A DNA stretch of 15,411 bases from the NCBI GenBank assembly GCA_946577115.1, contig CAMOAP010000031.1:1-15411 (forward strand), read 5' to 3'. Below, piece after piece: positions 1-15,411 of this stretch. The notes under the pieces are model-generated. The model had not been told where the DNA came from. It ran no database searches and saw nothing but the letters and a program-made list of their open reading frames with translations. Within the stretch, counting starts at the first letter, position 1; each line of letters starts with the position of its first letter. The stretch comes from an uncultured Acholeplasmataceae bacterium. Lineage in GTDB: Bacteria > Bacillota_I > Bacilli_A > Acholeplasmatales > Acholeplasmataceae. The position numbers were made by a program, and so were the translations under genes.

Positions 1-115
1 CTTTGGTTTCGTGCTTAGTAAAATAACAATAAATAAAAGTGGCACCTATTAAAATTACAGCAAAATAAAGGACTCCCATATTGAATTTTTTAAAAATTTT
101 ATCAAAAAATGACAT
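1..115 (-). CDS. ftsH: FtsH/HflB N-terminus (partial, runs off the window)
   Basis: This is the first 38 codons of a minus-strand gene that continues beyond base 1. It starts MSFFDKIFKKFNMGVL and then has one hydrophobic segment (about residues 13-30), as expected for the N-terminal membrane anchor of the ATP-dependent zinc metalloprotease FtsH. An AAGAAAGG-type ribosome site lies just upstream (about 123-130). It follows tilS by 56 bp, and tilS followed by ftsH is a common order in Firmicutes and Mollicutes. The AAA+ and protease domains are outside the window, so the name rests on context and the short membrane anchor. Another membrane protein is possible. Confidence 0.55.
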   Translation of the reverse strand, partial: MSFFDKIFKKFNMGVLYFAVILIGATFIYCYFTKHETK

Positions 116-171
116 AAATTAACCTTTCTTGCAAGAAATTATCTTGGGGTTAAACATTAAAACCAAATATT

Positions 172-1548
172 TTAATGTTTGGAGTTTAAATTCGGGATGG
201 ATTTAATTTCTGCATTTATTTTTTTTCGATTCTCATTTTTAATTTGTTTGAGAAAAACAATTCGAAGAGGTAAAAAGTTTTTAAAAGCTAAATAAATCCT
301 GGATTGATTTCCTAAAGTTAGGTTAGTATATAAGTAAGGAATAAATAAAATATTATCTAGATTATCTACTACTAACCATAAATTATTTCTTTGAGCGAGG
401 AGAACTTTTTTTTCAATTAAAAATTTTTTCAATTTTTTAGTGCCAAAACTAAATTTTAATGTGTCTTTGGGTTGGCGCAAACGCACTTTTAAAGGGAAGC
501 TAACTTTTTGAGGATCATAATTAAAGGGTTGTAACAAAGGACAAACACAAGCAAGGCAAAAATTACATGTAGAAACAAACAACAAAGGTTTTATTAAAGC
601 CAAGGGGGGTAATAGTGTGGGTTTCATTAATTTAATATACTCATAATCTTTAATTAAATGCCAATCAGAATTAAGATGCCAAGATAAATTAGGCTTATAA
701 ATATTGTTAATGCCTTTGATTATATTTTGGATAAAAATAAAACTTTTCGTAATATTTTGTTGTTCTAATAATAATAAAATGATATCTTTTTGAATAACTA
801 AATCAAGGTTTAAAAAAGGTGCAAGTTCAATAGAATTTGTTTGGTTACAACTATGATTTGTGTTTTTTTTAAGAAATAAAAGAGTTTGTTTTCGAATAAA
901 ATTATAGGTTTGCAAAAGAGTTTGTTGGTATTTTTGGATATTTTGTAAAAAACTAGTTTGAGTTTTTAAGTAAGGGATAACTTGATGCCTGATTTGGTTT
1001 CTTTGATAAGTAAGTTTTTGATTAGTGTAATCTTCCAAAAAAGGAATTTGGTTAACAATAGCATAACTTATGATTTGAGCTTTGGGAATGTATAAAAAAG
1101 GCTTCAAAAAGAAGAAATCTTGCCAAGAAGTTTGAATCTGCATGCCACTATAACCTAACAAAGTGCTGCTTCTGATTATTTTTTGTAAAATAGTTTCTGC
1201 CAAATCATCTAAATGATGGGCTGTCAAAATAAAAGGGGTTTGGTGCTTTGTAGCTATTTGCATTAATTTTTGTTGCCTTAATAAACGCGCTTGGGCTTGA
1301 AAGTTTTTGTGAGAGCAATTTAGTTCAAAATAATGAAAGCCAAGTGAGTTTTGGAGGCAATAATTTTTAACTAATTCTTTATCTTGCCAAGCATTGGAGC
1401 GTGTTAAATGGTTGAAATGCACCACTTGTAGTTTGATTTTTTTTTCCACCAAATAATGAAGTAAAGCCATTGAATCAACACCACCACTTACAGCTATAAT
1501 ATAGGTTTGATTGGCATCTATACTACAAGCAAGTTGAATAGTTTCCAT
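172..1548 (-). CDS. tilS: tRNA(Ile)-lysidine synthase TilS
   Basis: TilS uses ATP and lysine to convert C34 of the CAU-anticodon tRNA-Ile to lysidine, so the tRNA reads AUA and is charged with isoleucine. The N-terminal PP-loop ATPase motif is SGGVDS (residues 21-26). The family motif HHLDDLAET (111-119) follows. The C-terminal tRNA-binding domain is recognisable at about 351-405 ([12 protein letters not shown], then [13 protein letters not shown]). At 458 residues it is within the normal size range. The ATG is preceded by AAGGATG, which overlaps the aspS stop codon 9 bp upstream, so the two are probably translationally coupled. Oddities are a Cys-rich C-x2-C-x2-C-x-C cluster at 328-336 and a basic tail after about residue 424. 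Confidence 0.93.
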
Positions 1549-1557
1549 GAAACATCC

Positions 1558-3312
1558 TTAATTACAATTGTATTTTAGTTTGAGGGTATTGAGTTGTTTT
1601 TGGTCAATTGCGCCAGGAGTTTCTAACATCAAATCTTTGGCACTTTGGGTTTTAGGAAAGGCAATCACATCTTTGATATTATTCGTTTTAGTAAACAACA
1701 TCACAAGACGATCAAGACCTAGGGCAAGTCCTCCATGAGGTGGGGTACCATATTTAAGGGCTTCAACTAAAAAACCAAAACGTTTTTGTACTTCTGCTTG
1801 CGAAAATCCTAAAAGACTAAAAATTAATTCTTGTATTTGGGGATTGTTAATTCTTAATGAACCACCACCCACTTCATATCCGTTCCAAACTAAATCATAG
1901 GCTTTGGAAAGGGCTTGTTGAGGATTGCTTTTTAAAATGGCAGCATCACAAGGGGCAGTAAAAGGATGGTGTAAAGAGTAAAGACGTTTTGGAGGGTTTG
2001 GGTTTCCTAAAGTAAGATTTGGTTGGGATAGGTCTTCTTGAATGTTTTCAAACAAAGGAAAATCAATAATCCACAATAACACTTCTTGAGTTGTGTCAAC
2101 CAAAGATAAATCAAGTGCTAGTTTCGTGCGAAAAATACCTAAAGCTTTATGAATAATGTCTTTTGTACCAGAAACAACAAAACAAATTTCTTCATTTTTT
2201 AAAAAAGAATCATCTTTAATAAATTGAGATATTCCACCTATAATTTTATCATTTTTTTTAACAAAAGAAAACAATTTCAAGTTAAAATGTTTTTTAAAAA
2301 ACAATTGATAATCATCTAGTTTACGGCGTGTTAAAACTGATGTTTTGGCAACTTTAAAGCCTTTAATGTCGCCTGCAAACATATTTTGGGGACAAGCCGT
2401 AGTATCAAAAAAATTAGTAAAATCAGTAATTTTAAGAGGATTCCTTAAATCTGGTTTATCAGATCCATAAAGTTCAAAAGTTTGTTGATAAGTTAATCTT
2501 AAAAAGGGTTGAAGAAGTGTTTTTTTCCAAATATTAGCAAATAAATCTACTATAATTTCTTCCGTTAAGGACATAATTTCATCTTGATTTAAAAAAGAGG
2601 TTTCAATATCAATTTGACTAAATTCAGGTTGTCTATCAGATCTTAGGTCCTCATCTCGGAAACAACGTGCTACTTGGAAATACCTTTCAAATCCTGCAAT
2701 CATGTATAATTGTTTAAAAAGTTGGGGGGATTGAGGAAGAGCATAAAAATTACCTGGATAAATCCTAGAAGGCACTAAATAATCTCTTGCTCCTTCAGGA
2801 GTTGATTTAGATAAAATGGGAGTTTCTAGTTCTAAAAAATCATTTTTCAAAAGAGTTTTGCGAATACTTTGGGTAATTTGGTGTCTTTGAATCAAAAAAT
2901 GTTTAACTTCAGGATTTCTTAAATCTAAATAACGATATTTAAGCCTGGTTTCTTCTAAACTTTCTTGACTTTGAAACACATTTAAAGGTAAGGTTTGAGC
3001 CTCACTTAAAATTTCAATATAAGATACTAAAATTTCAATATCACCAGTTGGCAAATCAGGATTTTTATTGATTCTTTCAATTACTTGACCTTTAATTTGA
3101 ACAACTGTTTCTAGTTTAATTAAAGCTATTTTATCGTATTGTGGATTGTTTTCTTTAACTAATAATTGAACAACGCCAGAAACATCGCGCAAGTCCAAAA
3201 AAAGATTTTTTCCTAAATTACGTTTACGAAAAATAAAACCTTTTAGAAAAACTATTTTTCCTTTATGGGCTAGTGTTAATTGATTATTATAATGGCTATA
3301 TTTAGTTTTCAT
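1558..3312 (-). CDS. aspS: Aspartyl-tRNA synthetase
   Basis: A class II aminoacyl-tRNA synthetase that charges tRNA-Asp with aspartate in the cytoplasm. The 584 residues show the bacterial AspRS layout. An N-terminal OB-fold anticodon-binding domain (about 1-105) is followed by the catalytic core. The core contains the motif 1 region (LELETPILSKSTPEGARDY, about 160-178) and motif 2 (FQVARCFRDEDLRSDRQPEFSQ, about 212-233). A bacterial insertion (GAD-like, about 300-400) precedes motif 3 (GGLALGLDRLVML, 527-539). The start ATG lies 3 bp after the hisS stop, and its AAGGAG ribosome site (3325-3330) forms the last Lys-Glu codons of hisS. This marks a tight hisS-aspS-tilS operon. Confidence 0.96.
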   Translation of the reverse strand: MKTKYSHYNNQLTLAHKGKIVFLKGFIFRKRNLGKNLFLDLRDVSGVVQLLVKENNPQYDKIALIKLETVVQIKGQVIERINKNPDLPTGDIEILVSYIEILSEAQTLPLNVFQSQESLEETRLKYRYLDLRNPEVKHFLIQRHQITQSIRKTLLKNDFLELETPILSKSTPEGARDYLVPSRIYPGNFYALPQSPQLFKQLYMIAGFERYFQVARCFRDEDLRSDRQPEFSQIDIETSFLNQDEIMSLTEEIIVDLFANIWKKTLLQPFLRLTYQQTFELYGSDKPDLRNPLKITDFTNFFDTTACPQNMFAGDIKGFKVAKTSVLTRRKLDDYQLFFKKHFNLKLFSFVKKNDKIIGGISQFIKDDSFLKNEEICFVVSGTKDIIHKALGIFRTKLALDLSLVDTTQEVLLWIIDFPLFENIQEDLSQPNLTLGNPNPPKRLYSLHHPFTAPCDAAILKSNPQQALSKAYDLVWNGYEVGGGSLRINNPQIQELIFSLLGFSQAEVQKRFGFLVEALKYGTPPHGGLALGLDRLVMLFTKTNNIKDVIAFPKTQSAKDLMLETPGAIDQKQLNTLKLKYNCN

Positions 3313-3315
3313 GAA

Positions 3316-4584
3316 TTAATTTAACTCCTTGTTGTTTTGGAAATAAGAAACAACATCTTTTTGCAATATAGTGGTTTGCTGTTGGGTGTAAGTATTTTTA
3401 ATTGTAATTTGATTGTTGGAAAATTCTTTTGGTCCCAGAATTAAAAGATAAAGGGGTTGTTGTTTTAAGGCTTGTTTAAGGCTTTTGGAAAAAGATAAAA
3501 ACTGATAATTAATATCAACAGAAAAACCTTGATGTCGGAGAGTTGTTGCAAGTTCAAGACCTTGATAAAAAAATTGCGGCAAACTAACTAATATAAAGGC
3601 ATCCAAAGAAGGTAAGATATTTTTGTTACAAAAAGAATGAGTGGCTAGAATTGACATCAATCGTTCCATACCTAAGGCAAATCCAATACCAGGCGAAGGA
3701 TTTCCTCCGAATAAAGCAACTAAATTATCATAACAACCACCCCCACCCAAAACTGCTTGATGTCCTTGTTCATTATTATAAATAATTTCAAAAACGCTAT
3801 GAGTATAATAATCAAGCCCGCGGACTAAATCATGACACAATTCAAAATTAACATTCATTTGTTTAAGTCCTTCTAAAACTTGTAAAAAACGCACTTTAGC
3901 ACCCTCAACAAGGTGGTCAAAAATACGTGGTGCTTTTTTTAAAAAAAGTTCATTATGACATTTTTTACAATCCCAAATACGCAAAATATTTTTTTCAAAT
4001 CTTTCTTGACATAAAAGACATAATTGTGGATAATGTGTTTGTAAATAATTTTTAAAAATTTGTAAATAATTATTGTATGTAGTTTTACATCCCAAAGAAT
4101 TAATTTTCACAGTAATATCACAAATCCCTAAGGATTTAAGGGTTCCATATGCAAGAGCAATTGCTTCCACATCTAAAAAAGGGCTTGATTGTCCTAAAAT
4201 TTCTACTCCTACTTGATGAAATTGACGATAGCGTCCTTTTTGAGGTCTTTCATAGCGAAAACAAGGTCCATAATAAAAAAACTTGTGTAATTTTGAGGTT
4301 TTATCTAATTTATTTTCAACATAACTACGAATAACACCAGAAGTGCCTTCAGGACGCAAAGTAATAAAACGTCCTTTTTTATCTTTAAAAGTGTAAGTTT
4401 CTTTGGAAACCATTTCTGAATCTTGAGCTGCTCTATCAAAAACACCACGATATTCAATTATAGGAGTCCTTATTTCTTGCAAATGATAATTAGCAAACAA
4501 AGTGCGAATGTGATTTTCTAATTTTTGCCAACAAACCATTTTATCTGACATCAAATCATAAGTACCTTTAATTTTAGAAAACAT
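3316..4584 (-). CDS. hisS: Histidyl-tRNA synthetase
   Basis: A class II synthetase that charges tRNA-His. The sequence opens with KIKGTYDL (residues 4-11), the usual HisRS start. It has motif 2 (FFYYGPCFRYERPQKGRYRQFHQ, about 102-124) and the HisRS-specific histidine-binding motif LVRGLDYYTHSVFEI (253-267). Motif 3 is GIGFALGMERLM (298-309). A C-terminal anticodon-binding domain follows (about 325-415). Length (422) is normal. AAAGGAG at 4592-4598 supports the ATG. The insertion domain carries four cysteines (C189, C192, C206, C209) in two CxxC pairs, which could bind zinc. The gene heads the hisS-aspS-tilS(-ftsH) group. No T-box leader is visible upstream. Confidence 0.96.
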   Translation of the reverse strand: MFSKIKGTYDLMSDKMVCWQKLENHIRTLFANYHLQEIRTPIIEYRGVFDRAAQDSEMVSKETYTFKDKKGRFITLRPEGTSGVIRSYVENKLDKTSKLHKFFYYGPCFRYERPQKGRYRQFHQVGVEILGQSSPFLDVEAIALAYGTLKSLGICDITVKINSLGCKTTYNNYLQIFKNYLQTHYPQLCLLCQERFEKNILRIWDCKKCHNELFLKKAPRIFDHLVEGAKVRFLQVLEGLKQMNVNFELCHDLVRGLDYYTHSVFEIIYNNEQGHQAVLGGGGCYDNLVALFGGNPSPGIGFALGMERLMSILATHSFCNKNILPSLDAFILVSLPQFFYQGLELATTLRHQGFSVDINYQFLSFSKSLKQALKQQPLYLLILGPKEFSNNQITIKNTYTQQQTTILQKDVVSYFQNNKELN

Positions 4585-4727
4585 CTTTGGGCTCCTTTGT
4601 TTTTGGGGTTTGGATTGTTTTTTTGTTTTTTGGTGATAAAAGTTTTGATAAAGCTTTTATTAATAATTGAATAAAATAGAATAAATAGAGTAATAAATAA
4701 TTGTCTGCATTATAAATAATAAATTAT

Positions 4728-6965
4728 TTAATTATTGATTCTTTGAATTTGATAAATTTGCGAAATTTTATATAAATTAGTAATTAAATTATTTAATTCT
4801 TTGGTATTAGCTATTAAAATCCTAATCTTAATAATTGTTTCCAATTTTTGTTTATTAATAACATTAAATTCTAAAATACTTATATTAAAAATGTTGATTT
4901 TATTAATAATTTGTGGCACTAAAGTATCTTTAGTAGAAGCAATAATAATAATCCAAGCAGGATATTTAGCAATAGTGAAATCTTGTTGCCATGAAGCAAT
5001 AATTAGTCTTTTTTGATCAAATTGAGCTAAATTATTACATTCCTTGCGATGCACAATAATACCTCTTCCTTTAGTAACAAATCCTAGTATTTCGTCGTTA
5101 TAAACAGGGGTACAACAACTTGCCAATTTTAATTGAGGATTTTTAAGACCTTCAATAATAACGCCTGTATCACTTTGATGTTTTAGTTTATCATGTGATT
5201 TTGAAATTTGTTTTTGCAAAATATTTTGACTTAAAGTTTCTTTGGCTAAAACAAACAATTTATTAATTACTGACTTAGGATTTAATTGTTTTTTAGCAAT
5301 TTCATAATAAAAATCGTTCAGATTTTGAATATTGTAACGATCAAAATGTTTTTGGACAAAATTATTATCAAGTAAGGAAAGTTCAATTTTATTGGTATTT
5401 AATTCTTTTTCAATAATATCTTTTCCTTTTTGAATCTCTGCTAAATATTCCGTTTTATTTTCTTTGATATCTTTTTTTAAAAAACCTTTAATTTTTCTTT
5501 TTGCATGTGTTGTTTTTACCATGCGCAACCAGTCTTTATTAACTGATAAAATATTTTTATTGGTTTTAATCGAAATAATATCGCCATTTTTGAGTTGATA
5601 ATCAATTGGTACAATTTTCCCGTTAATAATAGCTGCTGTCATTTTGCTTCCTACTTCGGAATGAATACGAAAAGCAAAATCAATGGGCGTAGAACCTTTG
5701 GGAAGTTCAAATACTTCTTGAGTAGGAGTAAAAACATAGACATTATCACTTAAAATATCATTTTTAATAGCATCTACAAATTCTTTGGGCGTTTCTTCGG
5801 GGTGATTTTTGGCATCCATAGTAATTTTAACTAATTCTTGATACCATCTTAATTTTTGGGCAAGTTCTAATTGTTTAGCTTCTTGGGAATAAATTTTATT
5901 TTCTTTATAAGCCCAGTGAGCAGCAATTCCTTTTTCAGCAATTTCATCCATTTCTTGAGTTCTTATTTGCATTTCAAACAAAGAACCATCCTTAGTTAAA
6001 ACAGTTGTGTGCAAAGATTGATAAAGATTGGGTTTAGGAACTGCAATATAGTCTTTAAATCTTAGGGGCAATGGCGAAAAATTACCGTGAATAATCCCTA
6101 AACATTGATAACACAAATCAACAGTAGGAACAATAATTCGGATAGCTAAAAGATCAAAGATTTCTTCAAAATTAACTTTTCTTTTAACAATTTTTTTATA
6201 AATGCTATAAATATTTTTGACACGTCCTTTAATAGTGTAATTTTTAAGTTGGTGGTTGTCTAAAAGAGATTGGATATTGGTAATAATTTTGGTAATGGAT
6301 TCTTCACGTTGTTGTTTTTTTAACCGTATTAAATTAGAAACACGGTAATATTCTTGAGGAAAAGCATATCTTAGAGACAAATCTTCTAATTGTGATTTAA
6401 TTTCAAAAAGTCCTAAACGATGTGTTAAAGGAGCATGAATTTCTAAGGTTTCTTTGGCAATGCGTAATTGTTTTTCTGAAGGCATCGCATTTAAAGTTTG
6501 CATATTATGCAAGCGATCAGCAATCTTTAAAATAACAACTCTAATGTCTTTGGCCATCGCTAAAAACATTTTTTGTTGATTATCGGCGTGTCCTTGATTT
6601 TTGTGAAAAGCAATTTTAGTAAGTTTGGTTGCTTGATAAACTAAATAAGCTACATCTTCGCCAAATAAAGAAGTTAAATCTTGCATAGTAGCATTAGCAT
6701 CTTCCAAAACGTCGTGGAGCAATCCTGCTATTAAAGTATTAGGTTCGCTGTTTAATTGTGCCAAAATTTTAGTCACTGCACAAGGATGAATAATATAAGG
6801 TTCTCCTGTAAAACGCGTTTGACCGTGATGTTTTTCTTTCGAAAAAAGATAGGCTTGAGTAATTTTTTGCAAAATGGTGGCATCTTGAATATTTTTGGAA
6901 ATCACAACCATTAAATCTTGATATAACTTATCTTTTTCTAAAGTTAAATAAGATTTTAAAATCAT
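4728..6965 (-). CDS. rel: Bifunctional (p)ppGpp synthetase/hydrolase, Rel/SpoT family
   Basis: Makes and degrades the stringent-response alarmone (p)ppGpp. The 745-residue protein has the complete long-RSH layout. The HD hydrolase has its key residues intact: R51, H60, H84-D85, D150 and N154. The synthetase (about 240-355) has D271, RFKD (302-305), Y315 and E331. A TGS domain spans about 408-468. A Cys-containing RIS/zinc-finger region (SCCTP, 616-620; HRKEC, 639-643) precedes a C-terminal ACT-like domain (about 660-735). The RFKD form is typical of bifunctional Rel. The frame stays open another 52 codons upstream into mnmA, but I place the start at 6965 because it has AGAAGGTG at the right distance and begins where homology begins. 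Leu314 replaces the Gly of the usual NGYxSLH. Confidence 0.93.
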   Translation of the reverse strand: MILKSYLTLEKDKLYQDLMVVISKNIQDATILQKITQAYLFSKEKHHGQTRFTGEPYIIHPCAVTKILAQLNSEPNTLIAGLLHDVLEDANATMQDLTSLFGEDVAYLVYQATKLTKIAFHKNQGHADNQQKMFLAMAKDIRVVILKIADRLHNMQTLNAMPSEKQLRIAKETLEIHAPLTHRLGLFEIKSQLEDLSLRYAFPQEYYRVSNLIRLKKQQREESITKIITNIQSLLDNHQLKNYTIKGRVKNIYSIYKKIVKRKVNFEEIFDLLAIRIIVPTVDLCYQCLGIIHGNFSPLPLRFKDYIAVPKPNLYQSLHTTVLTKDGSLFEMQIRTQEMDEIAEKGIAAHWAYKENKIYSQEAKQLELAQKLRWYQELVKITMDAKNHPEETPKEFVDAIKNDILSDNVYVFTPTQEVFELPKGSTPIDFAFRIHSEVGSKMTAAIINGKIVPIDYQLKNGDIISIKTNKNILSVNKDWLRMVKTTHAKRKIKGFLKKDIKENKTEYLAEIQKGKDIIEKELNTNKIELSLLDNNFVQKHFDRYNIQNLNDFYYEIAKKQLNPKSVINKLFVLAKETLSQNILQKQISKSHDKLKHQSDTGVIIEGLKNPQLKLASCCTPVYNDEILGFVTKGRGIIVHRKECNNLAQFDQKRLIIASWQQDFTIAKYPAWIIIIASTKDTLVPQIINKINIFNISILEFNVINKQKLETIIKIRILIANTKELNNLITNLYKISQIYQIQRINN

Positions 6966-7035
6966 CTTATCACCTTCTTTTTTTAAGGATTTGCAAAAAA
7001 AACAAAAAGAAAATAAAAGAAATGAAAATAATAAA

Positions 7036-8172
7036 TTAAGTGTATAGTCTTTTTGTGCCTCGAAAATAAACTTCTTTAATAACACCTGCACCACAACAAA
7101 TATTTTTATCATAAAAAGCACATATTTGCCCTGGAGTTACTGCTTTAATTGTTTGAGGATAATTAATTTCTAAGTTTTTTTGGTCTATCCAAGTTAAAAT
7201 AACATCTTGATTGGGTTGGCGGTAGCGCATTTTGGCTTGCAAGTGCCGATTGGTTTTTTTCCCGCGCCAAACAATATCACCAATTAAGGCTTTGTCGCTG
7301 TATAAATAAGGATGTGTGCTACCTTTTTCTACGTATAAAGTGTTAGTTTGAAGGTGTTTTCCCACGACAAACCAAGGTTTTGGGCTGGGAACCTCACCCA
7401 AACCTAAATTTTTGCGTTGACCTATGGTATAATACATTACTCCTTTGTGATGTGCTAAAAAAGTACCATCCAAAGTTTTAATATCACCTTTTTGAGTGGG
7501 TAAATAGTTACTTAGAAATTGAAAAAAATTTCTTTCACCAATAAAACAAATCCCTGTTGAATCTTTTTTAGTGGCATTAATTAAATTATTGTTTAAAGCA
7601 ATTTGGCGTACTTCTTGTTTGGTGAGATGACCCAAAGGAAACAAAATATTTTGTAATTGTTTAGTTGTTAGTTGTGATAAAAAATAAGTTTGATCTTTGT
7701 TTGAATCCACAGCACAAGCAAGTCGCGGCACTAATTTTTGGTCCGAAAAAGTTTCATATATGATGTTAGCATAATGTCCCATAGCAATATATTGGGGGGC
7801 TAATTGTGTTGTTGCATAATCAATAAAAGCTCTAAATTTAATTTCATTATTACACAAAATATCAGGATTCGGAGTAAGATTATTTTCAAATGATTTAATA
7901 AAAGATATAAAGACTTTTTGCCAATATTCTTCAATAAAATCAACACGATGCAATTTAATTCCTAGTTGTTCAGACACTTTTAAGGCATCTTTATAATCGC
8001 GTTCTTGCGGACATATGTCATTTAAATTTGGATTACCTTGGATATCAAAATTAAGATTACTATCCCAATTACGCATAAAAACTGCTTCTACCAAATAACC
8101 TTGTTTTTTTAAAAGAAAAGCAGCAACAGCACTATCAACTCCGCCTGATAAACCAACCACAACTTTTGTCAT
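7036..8172 (-). CDS. mnmA: tRNA 2-thiouridylase MnmA
   Basis: Catalyses ATP-dependent 2-thiolation of wobble U34 in tRNA-Lys, tRNA-Glu and tRNA-Gln. The PP-loop is SGGVDS (residues 9-14). The catalytic nucleophile is C107 in NPDILCNNEIKF, and the persulfide-forming C209 is in STGICFIGERNF. The Y(T)IGQRKNLGLG segment (248-259) and the C-terminal beta-barrel region are present. Length is 378, typical for bacterial MnmA. AGGAG at 8179-8183 lies six bases before the ATG. It lies 71 bp after nadE and 70 bp before the true rel start, all in one direction and without an obvious terminator between, so co-transcription is likely. Confidence 0.96.
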   Translation of the reverse strand: MTKVVVGLSGGVDSAVAAFLLKKQGYLVEAVFMRNWDSNLNFDIQGNPNLNDICPQERDYKDALKVSEQLGIKLHRVDFIEEYWQKVFISFIKSFENNLTPNPDILCNNEIKFRAFIDYATTQLAPQYIAMGHYANIIYETFSDQKLVPRLACAVDSNKDQTYFLSQLTTKQLQNILFPLGHLTKQEVRQIALNNNLINATKKDSTGICFIGERNFFQFLSNYLPTQKGDIKTLDGTFLAHHKGVMYYTIGQRKNLGLGEVPSPKPWFVVGKHLQTNTLYVEKGSTHPYLYSDKALIGDIVWRGKKTNRHLQAKMRYRQPNQDVILTWIDQKNLEINYPQTIKAVTPGQICAFYDKNICCGAGVIKEVYFRGTKRLYT

Positions 8173-8243
8173 TTTTTGCTCCTTTGCTTTGTTTTTAAGG
8201 TGTTTTGGTGTTGTATATTTTTGGAACTTTGATTTATTACTTT

Positions 8244-10163
8244 TTATTCTTGTCTTTGTAGATAAATAGGCAACAAAAATTCATTTCTGGGTGAAAGACT
8301 ATTTTCTAAAACTTTAGGACCTGGCGGCATATTTTGTCTTTTAAATTGGGTTTGATAAAAAGTTTTAAGATATGAAACAACTAATTGATTACTTTTTTCT
8401 GGACTCAAATCAAAGGCAATTTGCAATAACCAAGCAATTTTGGTTTTGGTAAAACCTTTTTTGATACGGCAACAAAGAATAAAATCTTCCATAATTAATT
8501 TTTGATTAATGTTTTCTTGTACTAATTTTTGATATAATTTTTTTAAGTTAGGTGTAATTTGTAAATGGTTGTTTTCTAAATGATAAAGTAATAATTCTTT
8601 AACTAAAACATTAGGAACACCAGCATTGACATTATAAATGTGGTCGTAATGACTGCGAGGATTATTTTTGCCTAAAGCCATGTCTGAAAAATTATTATTT
8701 TCTAACAACAAAAACTTTTGCGTTTGGGAAGCTAATTCCTTTAAAAAAACTTGATCTAGGTCTTTGGGAAAAGAAGCAAGTTCGTTGGGCGAAATAGAAA
8801 TGTTGTTAATATCATGGACTAAAGTAGCTGTTTCATTTGTTTCGCTTGTGTTGTTTGTGGCGTGGATTAAATTAGTAGTGTTATCATTTTTGTCCAGTCC
8901 CAAAAAGGATAAAAAATCTTTTTTCTTTAAAAAACTACTTTCACAAATGTGACAAACTCCTTTGGTTTGTAAAAAATCTTTGAGGAGTTGATAATGAGTT
9001 TGGTTGGTAAAAAGAAGTGGATTTAGGATTATAATGAAATCTTCTAACGGTTTTTTCAATAAGGAAAAACTTTGAAAAGCAACTACTAAAGTTAATAAAT
9101 CTTTAATATTTTCAGTAATTTCTACAATTATTTTGGCATTAAAATTGCTAAGTTTGGTTTTAAGTGCTAATACTTGGATTTCGTTTGCCAACTTTAAGTG
9201 CGAAGCGACATTTGATTGAGGAATAAAAGGTGTTTGATTGATTGGTTTTTCAAAATAATAATGAGGCGTTTCTTTAAGTTCAAAATAAGCTTTCAAAAAA
9301 GGATATTGTTTGCCTATTCTTTGGTCACCATAAGTAGTATCAATTCTTCTTTGAAATTTAATTAAATCAACACAAACATCCACTACTAAACTTACATCTT
9401 GATTAAATAAATCTTTTTCGGCAACCATTTCGCCTAACAAAGCAGCCATTTTGTGGTTAGAAAATAAATTATCAACAGTGGATTCAGTAATTCCACTACT
9501 GGTATAAAAATAACCTCCAATTTGTTTACGCGAATGATCAAGAACGGCATTTTTTCTTAAATCAAGTTTGCCTATGTGATCGGGTGAAGCAGAAGGATTA
9601 AAAATTAAATGAGCGCCGTTTAAGGAAAGTAGATCACCAGGAGAAAAGACAGTCCATAAATCTTGACAAATTTCTACTCCAAAAATAAGATCAAATTGAG
9701 AATTAATAAATAAAACATCTCCAAAAGGAACTGTTTGACCCAAAATTTGGATATATTGTGATTCGCAGGTTTTACCTGATTGAAACCATCTTTTTTCATT
9801 AAATTCTTTATAATTGGGAATAGTTTTTTTAGGTGTTATTCCTAATATTTTATCTTTTTGAATGATAACTGCTACATTAAATAAAACTTCATGCAAAGCA
9901 AGAGGCATACCAAAAATATAAACTCCTTCAAAAGAATTATTTTTTAAAAGCCAATCTAGAGCTTGAAAATTTTGTTCTAAAAAAGTAGTTTCAAAAAAAA
10001 GATCTCCTGCTGTATAACTACTTAAACAAAGTTCGGGGAATAAAACAAAACTGGATTTACTTTTGTTTAGAACATTTTGCATACTATAAGCATTTTTTAA
10101 GGGATTGCCTACTGTTAAAGGAGGACTTGCTAATTCAATTTTAATAGAATTATTTTTGTACAT
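8244..10163 (-). CDS. nadE: NadE-like protein: intact glutaminase domain, degenerate NAD+ synthetase domain
   Basis: By length (639) and two-domain layout this is the glutamine-dependent NAD+ synthetase family. The N-terminal nitrilase-type glutaminase (about 1-290) keeps its triad: E44 (FPELCLSSY), K112 (PKKTIPNY) and C166 (GVEICQDLW). The C-terminal part aligns with NAD synthetase at YNVNAGVP (510-517) and QFKRQNMPPGPKV (606-618), then SPRNEF. The ATP-binding SGGxDS is absent: residues 350-355 read TENIKD within an otherwise colinear KIIV...LTLVVA. The GTxDxSE motif reads ENNNFSD (488-494). An Asn/Thr-rich insert lies at about 425-455. Synthetase activity is therefore doubtful, while amidase activity looks possible. 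The start is preceded by AAGGA at unusually long spacing. It lies downstream of amp and is separated from it by a terminator. Confidence 0.88.
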   Translation of the reverse strand: MYKNNSIKIELASPPLTVGNPLKNAYSMQNVLNKSKSSFVLFPELCLSSYTAGDLFFETTFLEQNFQALDWLLKNNSFEGVYIFGMPLALHEVLFNVAVIIQKDKILGITPKKTIPNYKEFNEKRWFQSGKTCESQYIQILGQTVPFGDVLFINSQFDLIFGVEICQDLWTVFSPGDLLSLNGAHLIFNPSASPDHIGKLDLRKNAVLDHSRKQIGGYFYTSSGITESTVDNLFSNHKMAALLGEMVAEKDLFNQDVSLVVDVCVDLIKFQRRIDTTYGDQRIGKQYPFLKAYFELKETPHYYFEKPINQTPFIPQSNVASHLKLANEIQVLALKTKLSNFNAKIIVEITENIKDLLTLVVAFQSFSLLKKPLEDFIIILNPLLFTNQTHYQLLKDFLQTKGVCHICESSFLKKKDFLSFLGLDKNDNTTNLIHATNNTSETNETATLVHDINNISISPNELASFPKDLDQVFLKELASQTQKFLLLENNNFSDMALGKNNPRSHYDHIYNVNAGVPNVLVKELLLYHLENNHLQITPNLKKLYQKLVQENINQKLIMEDFILCCRIKKGFTKTKIAWLLQIAFDLSPEKSNQLVVSYLKTFYQTQFKRQNMPPGPKVLENSLSPRNEFLLPIYLQRQE

Positions 10164-10372
10164 TTTCTTTCATTTGTTTCCTTAGTTATTCATGATTTAA
10201 TACTTAAAAAATTAATATTTATGATAATTAATATTTTTTATTAAAATAACTTAATGATAAAAACTATAATTTTTATTGTTTACATTTAAATAATTTTTTT
10301 ATGATATTAAATAAATTAATAAATATTTAATTTATGGTTTGTAAATGATAAAAAAATAAAACCATTATATAT

Positions 10373-10401
10373 ATTATATAATTTTTTAATAATTTTCCCA
10401 A
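10373..10401 (-). promoter_or_regulatory. Candidate nadE promoter
   Basis: On the minus strand, TTGGGA (10396-10401) is followed after 17 bases by TATAAT (10373-10378). The -10 is a perfect match and the spacing is ideal, but the -35 is a weak match and the region is so AT-rich that chance TATAAT boxes are common. The implied leader to nadE is about 200 bases. Confidence 0.4.
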
Positions 10402-10409
10402 ATAAAACC

Positions 10410-10488
10410 TTATTATTAATAATAGTTTTGAGCAATAAAATAATCTTTATAAATACAAAATTATAATCAAAACTATTATTAATAATAA
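10410..10488. repeat. 22-bp perfect inverted repeat
   Basis: Arms 10410-10431 and 10467-10488 are exact reverse complements, separated by 35 bases. Each arm also contains the self-complementary 14-mer TATTATTAATAATA (10411-10424 and 10474-10487), so the two arms can pair with each other or each fold alone. It lies between the nadE promoter candidate and the amp terminator. Its function is unknown; it could be a protein-binding site, an mRNA-stabilising hairpin or a mobile-element trace. Confidence 0.75.
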
Positions 10489-10497
10489 AAAATAAAT

Positions 10498-10530
10498 AAA
10501 AAAACTAGGTTAAAAAAACCTAGTTTTTTT
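10498..10530 (-). terminator. Strong Rho-independent terminator after amp
   Basis: A 14-bp perfect stem (10498-10511 with 10517-10530) has a five-base loop. The core is CTAGGTT/AACCTAG flanked by runs of seven A and seven T. It lies 24 bases past the amp stop codon. It ends in a T-run on either strand, so it could work in both directions. It separates amp from nadE. Confidence 0.88.
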
Positions 10531-10554
10531 AAAATAGATATAATTAATGATTAA

Positions 10555-11049
10555 TTAGTTTTTATTGTTTTTTTTAATAAAGAAAACAACACCACCAGCA
10601 ACCGAAACAACTGTAACAACTACTAATGTTAAGAACCACCATGATTTATACCAAGATGTAGGAACAGTCACAACTCTATTAGTATCAATTATATAATCCA
10701 AAACTGCTAAGTTTGTAACAATAGTTGATTTATCAGTTTTGGCTGCAATTTTTACTTTTTTTGCATTTGAATCAGTTGTGTCAAGTGAAACGTCAACATT
10801 TTCGTCTATTAAAATGTCAGTATAATTTGTTGGTGCTTGAGCATTTTTTAAAGCTTTAACCACAGCGTCTAATTGTTTAGCTTCTTCATCTGACTTAAAA
10901 GTAAGTTTTTTATTGTTGATTATTCCTGCTAGTTTACTTAAATCAACAGCAGTAGCAAAAACTTGAACACTAGCAAATATTAAAACAACAGTAACAAATA
11001 AAATTAAAACTTTAGCAACTAAAGATTTTTGAGTTTTTTGATTTTGCAT
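10555..11049 (-). CDS. amp: Antigenic (immunodominant) membrane protein Amp
   Basis: A surface protein of 164 residues. A basic N-terminus and hydrophobic core (about 10-31) end in a likely signal-peptidase site after ATA (32-34). A hydrophilic external domain of about 100 residues follows (35-136). One C-terminal transmembrane helix (about 137-157) and a basic tail (KKNNKN) complete it. This is the Sec-exported, C-terminally anchored layout of phytoplasma Amp, and the position between groEL and nadE matches the known amp locus. In aster yellows phytoplasmas Amp binds insect-vector proteins and is under positive selection. This copy is shorter than that type and close to stolbur-type proteins in size. 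AAGGAG (11058-11063) supports the ATG. It has its own promoter and terminator. Confidence 0.88.
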   Translation of the reverse strand: MQNQKTQKSLVAKVLILFVTVVLIFASVQVFATAVDLSKLAGIINNKKLTFKSDEEAKQLDAVVKALKNAQAPTNYTDILIDENVDVSLDTTDSNAKKVKIAAKTDKSTIVTNLAVLDYIIDTNRVVTVPTSWYKSWWFLTLVVVTVVSVAGGVVFFIKKNNKN

Positions 11050-11077
11050 TATTTGTTCTCCTTTCTTTCGTTATATA

Positions 11078-11106
11078 ATTATATGTTTTGAGTTATTTTC
11101 TAACAA
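11078..11106 (-). promoter_or_regulatory. amp promoter
   Basis: On the minus strand, TTGTTA (11101-11106) is followed after exactly 17 bases by a perfect TATAAT (11078-11083). Transcription would begin near 11071, giving a leader of about 22 bases that contains the ribosome site. This would let amp be expressed independently of, and more strongly than, groEL. Confidence 0.65.
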
Positions 11107-11174
11107 AGAGTTAAAAGACAATCAAAACCTACTATTATTTTAACATGAAAAAGGAAAAATGAGAGATAATAATT

Positions 11175-11194
11175 AAAAAAAATAAAGCTTTATT
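11175..11194 (-). terminator. Weak terminator-like palindrome after groEL
   Basis: The perfect palindrome AATAAAGCTTTATT (11181-11194) is followed on the minus strand by a T-run (11175-11182). It starts 13 bases after the groEL stop. The stem is short and AT-only, so it may be inefficient and allow some read-through into amp. Confidence 0.4.
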
Positions 11195-11206
11195 AGTTAT
11201 AAAAAA

Positions 11207-12871
<1,665 letters not shown>

Positions 12872-12935
12872 TTAAAATATTTTATTTTTGTTTATTAATA
12901 TTTAGTTTATAATGATTTATCTTATCTACATTATC

Positions 12936-13205
12936 TTATTTAATTTGTGCCAAAATATCTTTTACGGCAACAATTAAATAATCTTTTTCTCCTAAAGTAA
13001 CTTTGCTACCAGAATAGCTTTTATAAACCACTTCATCATCTTTTTTTAAACCTTCAACTTTGGAACCTACTCCAACAACAACCCCAACAGAGGATTTTTC
13101 TTTTTCTGATAAAGCCAAAATAATTCCGCTAGCTGTTTTGGTTTCTTCCATTTTTAATTTTAAAATAACATTGTCATGTAAGGGGATAATTGTTTTTTGT
13201 TTCAT
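12936..13205 (-). CDS. groES: Co-chaperonin GroES (10 kDa)
   Basis: The heptameric lid of the GroEL chamber. Its 89 residues include the start KQKTIIPLHDNVILK, the mobile loop (about 16-34) with the GroEL-contacting GIIL (27-30), VGVVVGVG (40-47) and a YLIVAVKDILA end. AAAGGAG (13213-13219) precedes the ATG. It is the first gene of the groESL operon. Its leader carries a CIRCE-like operator, so repression by HrcA and heat induction are likely. Confidence 0.96.
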   Translation of the reverse strand: MKQKTIIPLHDNVILKLKMEETKTASGIILALSEKEKSSVGVVVGVGSKVEGLKKDDEVVYKSYSGSKVTLGEKDYLIVAVKDILAQIK

Positions 13206-13270
13206 GATTAAACTCCTTTTAATTTAGTAATTTATTATAGTAAATCTAATATTTTTATAATGATTTCATT

Positions 13271-13296
13271 TTAGCACTAAATAATTTCAGTGCCAA
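13271..13296 (-). promoter_or_regulatory. CIRCE-like heat-shock operator
   Basis: The arms TTGGCACT and AGTGCTAA (minus strand) form an inverted repeat with one mismatch. They match the HrcA target consensus TTAGCACTC-N9-GAGTGCTAA except that the spacing is one base shorter (10 rather than 11 bases between the 8-bp arms). It lies immediately downstream of the groES -10 box, the usual place for CIRCE. Confidence 0.75.
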
Positions 13297-13306
13297 AAGC
13301 AATTTT

Positions 13307-13335
13307 ATTATATCATAAGATTTCATAATTGGCAA
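13307..13335 (-). promoter_or_regulatory. groESL promoter
   Basis: Minus-strand TTGCCA (13330-13335) and TATAAT (13307-13312) are separated by exactly 17 bases, a good housekeeping sigma-70-type promoter. Transcription should begin near 13300, just before the CIRCE-like operator. This places the operator in the early transcribed region. Confidence 0.78.
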
Positions 13336-13463
13336 GTGTTAAAAGAATTAATTAGGTTTGGGAGGATTCAAAAAATTATTTTATGTTTGTGGTAAATATT
13401 GTTAAATTATCTTATTGGAAATTGCAACAAAATTTTTTATTTATGTGATTATATTTATTTATA

Positions 13464-14189
13464 TTATTGTTTTTTATCATAAAAATAAGTTTGATAAATA
13501 ACCTTTAATCTTGGATTAAGATAAATAACACAACCTAATAATAATAAATTACAAGTAATAACTGTTTCTAAATTAAGAACAAAAATAATAATAAAAGAAG
13601 TTATTCCATTAGCAAACAAAATATTATGATAGGGATTATATTTTAGAATATATTTAATACTTGGCAAATAACATAAATAACCATTTATAGCATAAAAAAA
13701 AGTATGAATTAACATAATTATAATTAAAATGATTAATAAACGTATAATATTTTTTTTATTAATATTAAAATGACTTAAATCTTTACAATATAACAATCCT
13801 GTAAAAGACCAAGATAAAAGAGGTATTAAAGTTTTTAAAAGATAATTCATTATGACAAAAGCTACTTTATTAATATTTATTTTTGAAAGTAAAAAAATAT
13901 CATAATCAGCTAAAATCCAAAAATGCCCCAAAGTAGTTACAAATTCACAAAAAAGATAAATAAGAAGCATTAAATAAGCTTTCTTAAAACCAAAGAAAAA
14001 ACCTAAATAAAATAAAGGTACTAAAGCAAGATTCAAATAAGCTTTATAAGTTAAAGGAGACCTAAAATAATCATAGAATCCTATTTGTTTAGAAAGATGA
14101 AATAATATAAGAGCTAAAGCAAGTATATGAGCTGCTAGAATATATTTATGTAAAGTCTTTTGAGTATTTTGGGCGATTGACGAATACAA
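13464..14189 (-). CDS. Six-helix integral membrane protein, possible ECF S-component (ThiT-like)
   Basis: A hydrophobic protein of 241 residues with about six transmembrane segments (roughly 16-34, 50-68, 70-92, 108-133, 149-170, 192-218). The helix count and the spacing of the last two helices, with GYLCY (170-174) and NPYHNILFANG (185-195), recall the substrate-binding subunits of energy-coupling-factor transporters, especially the ThiT thiamine family. This is an impression from pattern, not a firm match: the His usually found in helix five appears to be Tyr. The start codon is TTG with AAAAGGAG about seven bases before it. It may have its own promoter (extended -10 at 14268-14276). It is transcribed towards groES with no clear terminator between. 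Confidence 0.7.
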   Translation of the reverse strand: MYSSIAQNTQKTLHKYILAAHILALALILFHLSKQIGFYDYFRSPLTYKAYLNLALVPLFYLGFFFGFKKAYLMLLIYLFCEFVTTLGHFWILADYDIFLLSKININKVAFVIMNYLLKTLIPLLSWSFTGLLYCKDLSHFNINKKNIIRLLIILIIIMLIHTFFYAINGYLCYLPSIKYILKYNPYHNILFANGITSFIIIFVLNLETVITCNLLLLGCVIYLNPRLKVIYQTYFYDKKQ

Positions 14190-14267
14190 AATATTGCTCC
14201 TTTTAGTTTTTTAATATACTCGATAAATTTATTTTTAAGAAATTATTTTATCACTTTTATCATCTCA

Positions 14268-14276
14268 ATTATAACA
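14268..14276 (-). promoter_or_regulatory. Extended -10 element for the membrane protein gene
   Basis: The minus strand reads TGTTATAAT, a perfect -10 hexamer with an upstream TGn extension. No good -35 is visible at 16-18 bases. Transcription would begin near 14261, about 70 bases before the TTG start. The candidate is weak because of the AT-rich background. Confidence 0.35.
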
Positions 14277-14528
14277 TATATCAAAATACAATAACATAAT
14301 GTTAATATAAATAATTTATTCCCATTATCCCAACCAGATAAAAAAATTATTAATTAAGAATAAAAAAATAATGGATATAAAATATCTATTATTGACTATA
14401 ATTATTATTTAATTGCATTTATTATAAAAGATTTATAAATATAGATAATTATATTTATCGATAACTATTATAATCTAATCTCTATATGTGTTTAATTTTT
14501 CTATTCCTCCATAAATGTTTGAAAGGTT

Positions 14529-14557
14529 TGAACTGTTCCAAAAGTTTAGACACTTTT
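14529..14557 (+). mobile_element. IS3/IS150-type terminal inverted repeat-like sequence
   Basis: TGAACTGTTCCAAAAGTTTA followed by GACAC resembles the ends of IS150-group elements of the IS3 family, which begin TGAACTG, have an A-run and then a GGACAC/AGACAC block. In phytoplasmas the tra5 transposase of this family is associated with potential mobile units. No transposase gene is in the window, so this would be an isolated end or the edge of a larger element extending rightwards. Confidence 0.4.
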
Positions 14558-14578
14558 TATTTTTTAAAATTATTCTTT

Positions 14579-14608
14579 AAGACTAACTATTAAGTTAGTC
14601 TTTTTTTT
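14579..14608 (+). terminator. Rho-independent terminator hairpin upstream of the sigma gene
   Basis: A 10-bp perfect stem (14579-14588 with 14593-14602), loop ATTA, is followed by T at 14601-14608. It is oriented for the plus strand. No plus-strand gene precedes it in the window, so it either insulates the sigma gene from incoming transcription or acts as an attenuator in its leader. A third copy of the arm, AAGACTAA at 14616-14623, can pair with 14595-14602 instead. Confidence 0.7.
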
Positions 14609-14662
14609 CTTTTCTAAGACTAAAAAAAATAATTTCCTCTCTTTTCTAAAAACGTTTTTAGT

Positions 14663-14667
14663 AAGGA
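14663..14667 (+). promoter_or_regulatory. Shine-Dalgarno site placing the sigma gene start at 14673
   Basis: AAGGA lies five bases before an in-frame ACG, exactly where the ATG of the sigma-factor gene would be expected. No comparable site precedes the later in-frame TTG at 14760. Confidence 0.6.
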
Positions 14668-14672
14668 ATTAA

Positions 14673-15302
14673 ACGTTAAGACAAGAATTATTTAAAGAAT
14701 TTTTAAAAAATAAAAAGAATTTAGAAATTCGTAATCAATTAATCGCACTTTATTTACTTTTGGTAAAAAAACTAGTTTATCAATTTAAATATTATCCGCG
14801 TGTCCTTCAAAAAGAGGATTTATACCAAGAAGGGGTTTTAGGATTAATCAAAGCCCTAAATAATTACCAAGATTTCGGTTATGACTTTATCGCTTATGCT
14901 ACTCCAACCATCAAATCGGAAATAAGAGAAATAATAAGAAAAAGTCATTCGCCTTCAATCCCACAAAAAAATCATAAAAAGGATAATCTTTCTTTTCGAG
15001 AAGAATTTTATGAACCATATCAAATAAATAAATTAAATCCTCATCCATTATGGTTAAAACAAGTTAAGCATGAAAATTTTTTAAAAAAAATGAAAGCTAA
15101 ATTAAGTGAAAACGAATTTCAAATTATCCATTTAAGTTTTGGCGTTCCTTTAGGAAATATCAATGAAGATTATCAAAAATGTTATACCAATGCTGAAATA
15201 GCTGAAAAACTCAATTTATCTTTAAAACAAGTAGAAAATATTAAAAACATCGCTATCAAAAAATTAAAAAAACAAAAAAACGTTAACCTTTCCCGTCCGT
15301 AA
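14673..15302 (+). CDS. sigF: Sigma-70 family RNA polymerase sigma factor (PMU type, sigF/fliA-like), start codon ACG or lost
   Basis: An alternative sigma factor of about 209 residues. Counting from 14673, region 2 spans about 15-92: NLEIRNQLIALYLLLVKKL, EDLYQEGVLGLIKAL (48-62) and FIAYATPTIKSEI (72-84). Region 4, a helix-turn-helix, spans about 138-202 (LSENEFQIIHLSFG, then TNAEIAEKLNLSLKQVENIK). The linker replaces a recognisable region 3. Similar genes are carried by phytoplasma potential mobile units. Coding similarity clearly begins before the TTG at 14760, which would delete region 2.1. The only well-placed start is ACG at 14673, after AAGGA, with a stop codon (14670-14672) directly upstream. 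Either ACG is used inefficiently or an ATG has mutated and the gene is decaying. It is the only plus-strand gene here. Confidence 0.8.
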   Translation, partial: TLRQELFKEFLKNKKNLEIRNQLIALYLLLVKKLVYQFKYYPRVLQKEDLYQEGVLGLIKALNNYQDFGYDFIAYATPTIKSEIREIIRKSHSPSIPQKNHKKDNLSFREEFYEPYQINKLNPHPLWLKQVKHENFLKKMKAKLSENEFQIIHLSFGVPLGNINEDYQKCYTNAEIAEKLNLSLKQVENIKNIAIKKLKKQKNVNLSRP

Positions 15303-15411
15303 TGACGTTAAACTATAAGTTTTCGACGTTATACCAAGAAGATGGGTGAAAATTTAAAGTCTCATATAACGTACATAAGGTAACAGTTACACCAGTAAAA
15401 GATAACTGAGT

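Follow-up and report, generated by a model that had tools for sequence, protein, structure and literature searches.

Glutamine-dependent NAD synthetases (NadE) of type F combine a glutaminase domain and a synthetase domain in one chain. The accessible parts of PMC6946656 describe a YRE loop that contacts glutamine and forms the tunnel entrance, a bond between Lys644 of the M. tuberculosis enzyme and Glu129 of that loop, and activation of the glutaminase by the synthetase-site intermediate (179-fold in M. tuberculosis NadE and 31-fold in human NadE). For the human glutaminase, kcat is given there as 0.18 without effectors versus 5.6 per second. An extended C-terminal loop is named as an interface signature of two-component NadE in the accessible text of PMC3376133. 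Here we analyse a nadE-like gene on the minus strand of a 15,411-nucleotide contig (CAMOAP010000031.1, positions 1 to 15,411; hereafter ‘the window’, meaning this whole stretch) from an uncultured Acholeplasmataceae bacterium. The encoded protein retains the residues of the glutaminase site and lacks the motifs of the synthetase site, a pattern it shares with its homologues in the phytoplasmas, a genus of insect-borne plant pathogens.

A 2011 review (PMC3322544, section 8.3.1), in the part accessible, took NadE to be working in four genomes and suggested import of deamido-NAD or a precursor. In the accessible text of other phytoplasma papers, nadE serves as a map marker or a neighbour gene, and that of PMC13202766 discusses NAD biosynthesis for Arsenophonus only. 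No report of a lost NadE active site in phytoplasmas was found in the literature searched, which left most subscription journals uncovered. NCBI entries name many of these proteins ‘nitrilase-related carbon-nitrogen hydrolase’, so automatic annotation has already noticed the missing domain.

The synthetase motifs are erased

The gene occupies window positions 8244–10163 on the minus strand, where an open reading frame (ORF) with an ATG start runs for 639 codons without interruption and encodes a full-length homologue of glutamine-dependent NadE. The 639-residue product matches the NCBIfam NAD(+) synthase family NF002730 with 306.7 bits, below the equivalog cut-off of 473. Pfam detects CN_hydrolase (PF00795) at 23.5 bits against a cut-off of 23.2, which, together with the intact catalytic triad, places the protein in the carbon-nitrogen hydrolase superfamily. 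NAD_synthase gave no Pfam match in the window protein, even at E ≤ 1.

Homologues were collected by a search of about 5.8 billion proteins, which returned 492 matches among 8000 scored candidates; the best 120 were examined and, with the window protein, comprise 60 phytoplasma proteins and 61 other homologues. For the residue and site tables, proteins shorter than 540 residues or at least 90% identical to another were dropped, leaving 31 phytoplasma and 52 other sequences. Eight matches without an organism name were first assigned by rank and by a missing PF02540, a procedure that would be circular. Five of them (P0002, P0025, P0026, P0029 and P0031) later fell among the phytoplasmas in a tree built from the glutaminase domain only, and P0003, P0012 and P0017, which are outside that tree, are counted as phytoplasma by rank and missing PF02540.

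Residues 344–362 of the window protein read KIIVEITENIKDLLTLVVA (window 9134–9078), and the ATP-pyrophosphatase loop within them is TENIKD (residues 350–355; 9099–9116, minus strand) where SGGxDS is expected. Both the motif scans and the residue table record this loss. Glycine is absent from positions 348, 351 and 352 in all 31 phytoplasmas, and the other residues of the loop survive sporadically (Ser350 in two, Asp354 in one, Ser355 in one). The GTxDxSE motif has become ENNNFSD (residues 488–494; 8682–8702, minus strand), with Asn replacing Asp at position 491 in 31 of 31; Glu494 persists in five sequences and Thr489 in four. The Lys-Thr pair that follows NAGVP is Asn518–Val519 (8607–8612, minus strand). 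Position 518, which is Lys in 52 of 52 other homologues and in none of the phytoplasmas, is occupied there by Asn, His, Gln or Asp. The adjoining Thr519 is retained in 25 of 31, so that only the Lys is lost throughout and Val519 of the window is a local change. At position 499 none of the 31 keeps the nicotinate-side Trp/Phe (W490tb), which gives way to Lys, Gln, Asn, Arg or Glu. The segment surrounding the acceptor residue (Asp497 in M. tuberculosis), which reads NGDxMSMYN in most relatives displayed, has been rewritten. SGGxDS occurs nowhere else in the window protein. The first-pass annotation had reported the open frame, the two erased motifs, the Asn-Val substitution and the retained glutaminase triad, and each of these holds.

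Two further regions differ in length from those of the other homologues. Residues 409–477 (8733–8939, minus strand), which probably contain the first synthetase loop, correspond to 7–72 residues in the 31 phytoplasmas and 40–42 in the 52 others; the segment is Asn/Thr-rich and 69 residues long in the window protein, and only 7–35 residues long in 29 of the 31. Residues 526–558 (8490–8588, minus strand), which from the alignment appear to contain the P2 loop, are shortened to 33–35 residues in phytoplasmas from 41–53 elsewhere.

The C-terminal loop, residues 601–639 (QFKRQ..GPK..SPR; 8247–8363, minus strand), is a probable domain interface and likely corresponds to the interface loop of two-component NadE. 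It is present by sequence across the genus, the Lys of GPK being found in 30 of 31 phytoplasmas and the Gly in 31 of 31. Lys644 of the M. tuberculosis enzyme aligns with Lys617 (30 of 31), and its partner Glu129 aligns with Glu120 (31 of 31).

The glutaminase site is retained

The nitrilase-type glutaminase domain spans residues 1–270 (9354–10163, minus strand). Its catalytic triad consists of Glu44 (10032–10034), Lys112 (9828–9830) and Cys166 (9666–9668), each present in 31 of 31 phytoplasmas and 52 of 52 other homologues. Of the full set of 60 phytoplasma proteins, 59 carry the Cys-Glu-Lys triad and the remaining one is a partial sequence. In M. tuberculosis NadE the counterparts of the window residues are Glu52, Lys121 and Cys176, according to an alignment whose chain numbering equals the published numbers plus one. 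We take Glu52 to be the triad residue of that enzyme; Lys121 and Cys176 are named in the accessible text of PMC6946656, which is also the source of the residue roles assigned through this alignment.

The equivalent of the YRE loop, residues 118–123 (9795–9812, minus strand), contains Tyr118, Glu120, Phe121 and Glu123 in all 31 phytoplasmas. Together with the triad, Tyr50, Trp170, Ser193 and Lys199 are likewise invariant. Tyr118 is fixed in the phytoplasmas and occurs in only 8 of the 52 other homologues.

Distribution and origin of the change

The loss extends across the genus. All 61 other homologues carry SGGxDS, whereas none of the 60 phytoplasma proteins does (59 of them extend to the site), and GTxDxSE shows the same division (0 of 60, with 57 reaching the position, versus 61 of 61). 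Of 580 loci in named genomes, the best 80 include 73 with both motifs and one with SGGxDS alone; four gave no reading frame for the motif test, and both phytoplasmas (Ca. P. tritici and Ca. P. oryzae) have neither motif. In an alignment of 35 phytoplasma and 37 other members, PF00795 is detected in 71 of 72 and PF02540 in 37 of 72. The latter count equals the number of non-phytoplasma members, in agreement, by totals, with the precomputed domains. A sequencing error or local decay of the window is ruled out because the motifs are gone in all 31 non-redundant phytoplasma proteins. The loss of the synthetase site is confirmed, and is common to the genus and not special to the window organism.

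In a tree of the 31 phytoplasma glutaminase domains and the first 30 of the 52 others, the phytoplasmas form one group with support of 100/99. Nearest to it are Alteracholeplasma palmae (P0046) and P0045, both of which have intact motifs. This single group makes one ancestral loss, before the spread of the genus, the simplest account of the sequences.

A sample of 29 genus genomes, many of them drafts (16 at ≥90% completeness and ≤5% contamination), contains an open nadE frame in 27. No nadE match was obtained in one genome (G018), a single contig of 769,143 bases. Upstream of its mnmA (L037 1–7900, G018:C1:470500–478400) lie mobile-unit-like genes and a coiled repeat protein; read from their translations, the former encode single-strand binding, HU-like, sigma-like and AAA ATPase proteins. 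In another genome (G028; contig of 853,092 bases, L038 4856–6790) nadE is split into two frames of 255 and 324 residues. The break falls at about residues 251–287, the end of the glutaminase domain, and the flanking ORFs are of the expected size. Either case may be an actual lesion or an assembly error. The ancestral nature of the change, the superior survival of C-terminal loop sites and the two genomes without an intact copy go beyond the first-pass annotation.

Selection on the two domains

Sites at least 95% fixed in the 52 other homologues were scored as kept when present in at least 90% of the 31 phytoplasmas and as lost when present in under half. In the glutaminase domain 48 of 52 such sites are kept and none falls in under half of the sequences. 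In the synthetase domain 17 of 76 are kept and 50 are lost. By region, none is kept around the ATP loop (0/10), at residues 365–477 (0/16) or at 526–555 (0/4), and some are kept at 478–525 (6/25), 556–600 (2/5) and 601–639 (7/14). The remaining two are Gln330 and Leu334. Conserved sites of the ancestral synthetase are therefore best preserved in the C-terminal loop. Positions newly fixed in phytoplasmas concentrate in residues 1–329 (41 of 47), and the median ratio of synthetase to glutaminase distances is 2.31 in phytoplasmas versus 0.84 elsewhere.

Maximum-likelihood codon fits were made in six clades, whose labels (I, XII, III, II, XI and V) are guesses, covering 23 of 27 phytoplasma genes; L017, L021, L023 and L025 belong to no clade and the broken L006 was excluded. 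The ratio dN/dS (omega) is 0.03–0.12 for the glutaminase and 0.07–0.15 for the synthetase domain, which is thus under roughly half the constraint of the glutaminase, and omega = 1 is rejected in all 12 fits (two domains in six clades). All 36 segment fits also reject neutrality (p ≤ 0.02, uncorrected). Four of these were stuck at omega 1.000 and were refitted on a coarse grid, giving 0.15, 0.01, 0.04 and 0.08 with omega = 1 rejected each time. Omega for the C-terminal loop is 0.02–0.10 in all six clades. The neighbouring mnmA gene, available as a yardstick in three of the six clades (3, 4 and 4 rows), has omega values of 0.18, 0.03 and 0.04 where the synthetase domain has 0.13, 0.07 and 0.10. 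Pairwise Nei–Gojobori ratios are usable for close pairs only; among the 45 of 348 pairs listed, the synthetase ratio climbs to 1.29 at larger dS, a rise we put down to saturation, and the maximum-likelihood fits were therefore used.

The rejection of neutrality for the synthetase domain indicates that the dead domain is relaxed yet held, and is not neutral debris. With its catalytic residues lost and omega below 1, it behaves as a pseudoenzyme domain under selection. The sequence aligns end to end, and the fold may be kept.

NAD pathway in phytoplasma genomes

NadD (TIGR00482) was found in none of the 29 genus genomes. All eight sampled family members outside the genus have it at ≥99 bits (three over the curated cut-off), and in each it directly adjoins nadE, with 7–29 bases between the matches. 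Of the 24 genomes sampled from elsewhere in the order, 21 give a match of at least 70 bits; the other three (G038, G047 and G057), which belong to a single other family, have one weak NadD-type match each and lack any NadE match. PF01467, to which NMN and NaMN adenylyltransferases belong, has matches in eight of the 29 genus genomes, which are six CitC (citrate lyase ligase)-like and two RibF proteins. The CitC-like proteins are found at L033, L035, L036, L124, L125 and L126, and one of the six exceeds the NCBIfam cut-off.

NAPRTase was likewise found in 0 of 29 genus genomes, against six of 14 controls, which did not cover Acholeplasmatales outside the genus. With NadD and NAPRTase missing and the PF01467 matches accounted for as CitC-like or RibF proteins, no enzyme was found in these genomes to take nicotinate or a mononucleotide to NAD. 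PnuC gave no match in the 29 genomes (five of 14 controls). The ADP/ATP-type carrier family PF03219 also gave none, a result that is uninformative since no control genome matched either. LigA, which consumes NAD, is present in 29 of 29.

A second nadE was sought through PF02540, and none was found among the 29 genomes. The family has matches in all 29. In the 28 nadE-bearing genomes the main match lies on the same strand as nadE and at most 1.3 kb from it, the position of mnmA in the window and in G018; mnmA copies in the other genomes are named by this position and by frame length. Two extra matches below the cut-off are AsnB (G028) and ThiI (G007), and G023 has a second, small match just before its mnmA-like match. 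No intact NAD synthetase was thus found in the 29 phytoplasma genomes.

Loss of NAD kinase (NadK) is not supported as a further phytoplasma-specific change: PF20143 is found in 0 of 29 genus genomes but also in 0 of 8 of the rest of the family (G029–G036), whereas 20 of the 24 genomes sampled elsewhere in the order match it. PF01513 matches in 0 of 29 genus genomes and in seven of the eight other family members, with two of the seven exceeding the cut-off.

Genomic neighbourhood

The minus strand of the window carries groES, groEL, an amp-type gene, the nadE-like ORF, mnmA, relA/spoT, hisS, aspS and tilS, with names partly read from translations and some backed by Pfam or NCBIfam matches. The downstream neighbour mnmA (7036–8172, minus strand) is the sole PF02540 match in the window's own genome. 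The upstream neighbour, between nadE and groEL, is an amp-type membrane protein gene (10555–11049, minus strand) named by position; NCBIfam gave no match for its product. The order groEL-amp-nadE is described in the accessible part of PMC4518686. The relA/spoT ORF begins with GTG at 7121 and shares 86 bases (7036–7121) with the end of mnmA; its real start may lie further in. A sigma-70-like protein encoded at 14760–15302 on the plus strand resembles one in the mobile-unit-like stretch of L037.

Proposed role and alternatives

NAD synthesis has almost certainly been lost in phytoplasmas. The protein would descend from a working glutamine-dependent NAD synthetase encoded directly after nadD, and the ancestor of ‘Candidatus Phytoplasma’ would have dropped the pathway, with nadD gone and the ATP loop, nicotinate pocket and ammonia-acceptor region erased. 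Comparison with relatives shows that loop regions above the active site were shortened or released in length, and the codon models show that the remainder of the synthetase domain was maintained by selection. The C-terminal loop, richest in surviving sites, probably docks on the glutaminase. The likeliest remaining activity would be hydrolysis at the Cys-Glu-Lys site, where glutamine or a similar amide would be split into glutamate and ammonia, with the dead domain keeping the glutaminase in its multimer and shaping the YRE loop and gate. The adenylated intermediate is not expected here, so the glutaminase would have to run at a basal rate or be constitutive. The basal rate may suffice, or the remaining docking parts may keep the glutaminase active, the second being our preferred guess. 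Intact NAD would enter from phloem or insect cells via a carrier, an import we infer because the NAD pathway is missing.

In our judgement the probable state of the genus is NAD import combined with a selected and presumably active glutaminase carried on a pseudo-synthetase scaffold. The first-pass annotation had offered a similar interpretation, which is partly supported. An apparently intact glutaminase on a pseudo-synthetase scaffold agrees with the residue table and the selection analysis, simple decay is contradicted by purifying selection on both domains, and another route to NAD is in line with the pathway survey. Its additional suggestion of a NAD-pathway regulator is not supported here: the ATP and nicotinate residues are lost with the catalytic ones, and little of the pathway is left.

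Several observations weigh against a selected glutaminase on a scaffold. The gene is missing from G018 and broken in G028, so it is not needed everywhere. The synthetase domain is under weaker constraint than the glutaminase in all six clades and than mnmA in two of the three comparable ones. Among the four synthetase segments, the C-terminal loop ranks lowest in omega in just three clades (I, XII and III), highest in one (II) and between the extremes in two, and the interface argument therefore leans mainly on site counts. The adenine-side position 607 is not uniformly abandoned, being Phe in six of 31 phytoplasmas (the window included) and Tyr in 17. That the domain keeps its fold is itself presumed from the alignment. 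The human glutaminase is slow without the intermediate, so an intact triad is no proof of a useful rate.

Alternatively, the glutaminase may serve another purpose, acting on a different amide or passing ammonia to a different enzyme with the pseudo-synthetase as adaptor. Nitrilase-family enzymes have wide substrate ranges, and both the concentration of newly fixed positions in residues 1–329 and the fixation of Tyr118 would suit such a change. The equivalents of M. tuberculosis Ser203 and Arg209 (as Lys), which we take to be glutamine-side residues, and of Glu129 and Glu132 are nevertheless present in 31 of 31 phytoplasmas and match nearly all other homologues, and we regard a new purpose as unlikely. 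Somewhat more doubtful still is a slowly dying gene that, after loss of the synthetase, is disappearing as a whole in one lineage after another, with the glutaminase left over as a bystander. This would account for G018, with mobile-unit-type genes in place of nadE upstream of mnmA, for the copy broken among intact neighbours in G028, and for a synthetase domain evolving 2.3 times as fast as the glutaminase. Against it, both domains in all six clades, and each of the four synthetase segments, are under purifying selection, and the gene is retained across the sampled genus, with an open frame in 27 of 29 genomes.

The remaining alternatives assign a function to the altered synthetase domain itself. 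A sensor or regulator that binds NAD or another nucleotide and tunes the glutaminase would explain why the domain is retained with a fixed Asp-to-Asn change at 491, and the aromatic residues at 607 fit with it. The nicotinate residue and the ATP-loop residues have, however, been substituted without a common replacement, and both loop regions have changed in length, which makes such a sensor very improbable. That NAD is still made at an unorthodox ATP site is scarcely credible: although the gene persists and the genomes yielded no other NAD synthetase, the ATP loop is intact in no sequence, Lys518 and the nicotinate residue are absent from all 31, the acceptor region has been rewritten, and NadD, the supplier of the substrate, has no match in any of the 29 genomes.

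The scaffolded glutaminase can be taken a step further, and here our proposal is tentative, with the odds against it as a whole. Phytoplasmas as a genus may live on ready-made NAD, with their last NAD enzyme turned into a free-running glutaminase whose dead half acts as activator and scaffold, breaking down phloem glutamine to supply the cell with glutamate and ammonia. Should NadE make no NAD, the account given in the accessible section of PMC3322544 fails and phytoplasmas depend on whole host NAD. This would bear on the failure to grow phytoplasmas outside their hosts and would point to an NAD carrier. The genus would also offer a natural experiment on the evolution of a coupled two-site enzyme after one site dies, and could show which parts of a channelling synthetase serve only to keep the glutaminase in shape.

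Comparison with known systems

Among the closest described systems is NadE of type F (NF002730/PRK02628; M. tuberculosis 3DLA), with which the window protein shares the two-domain layout, the triad, the YRE loop and the C-terminal loop. The alignment with Alteracholeplasma palmae NadE (P0046) is end to end, at 43% identity over 100% of the length. Unlike type F enzymes, the window protein lacks SGGxDS, GTxDxSE, the Lys of PKT and the nicotinate-side Trp/Phe at 499, and its region 526–558 is shorter. The difference is reflected in the match to NF002730, for which P0046 scores 628.8 bits and the window protein 306.7, on either side of the cut-off of 473.

The Glu-Lys-Cys triad and the Pfam score barely over the cut-off also relate the protein to the nitrilase superfamily (PF00795). 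Single-domain nitrilases have no synthetase part, whereas the window protein has about 310 residues of selected pseudo-synthetase. As a glutaminase without a working synthetase on its chain, it resembles the stand-alone glutaminase subunits of two-subunit NadE (types C and R; accessible text of PMC3376133). Those subunits serve a separate synthetase, whereas no intact one was found in the 29 phytoplasma genomes. Mycoplasma suis offers a precedent for a parasitic mollicute losing NAD synthesis: NAD synthase and NAD kinase are reported missing there, and NAD production is left open, in the accessible part of PMC3091866. In M. suis the NAD synthase gene is said to be missing, whereas in phytoplasmas the protein persists at full length with its glutaminase.

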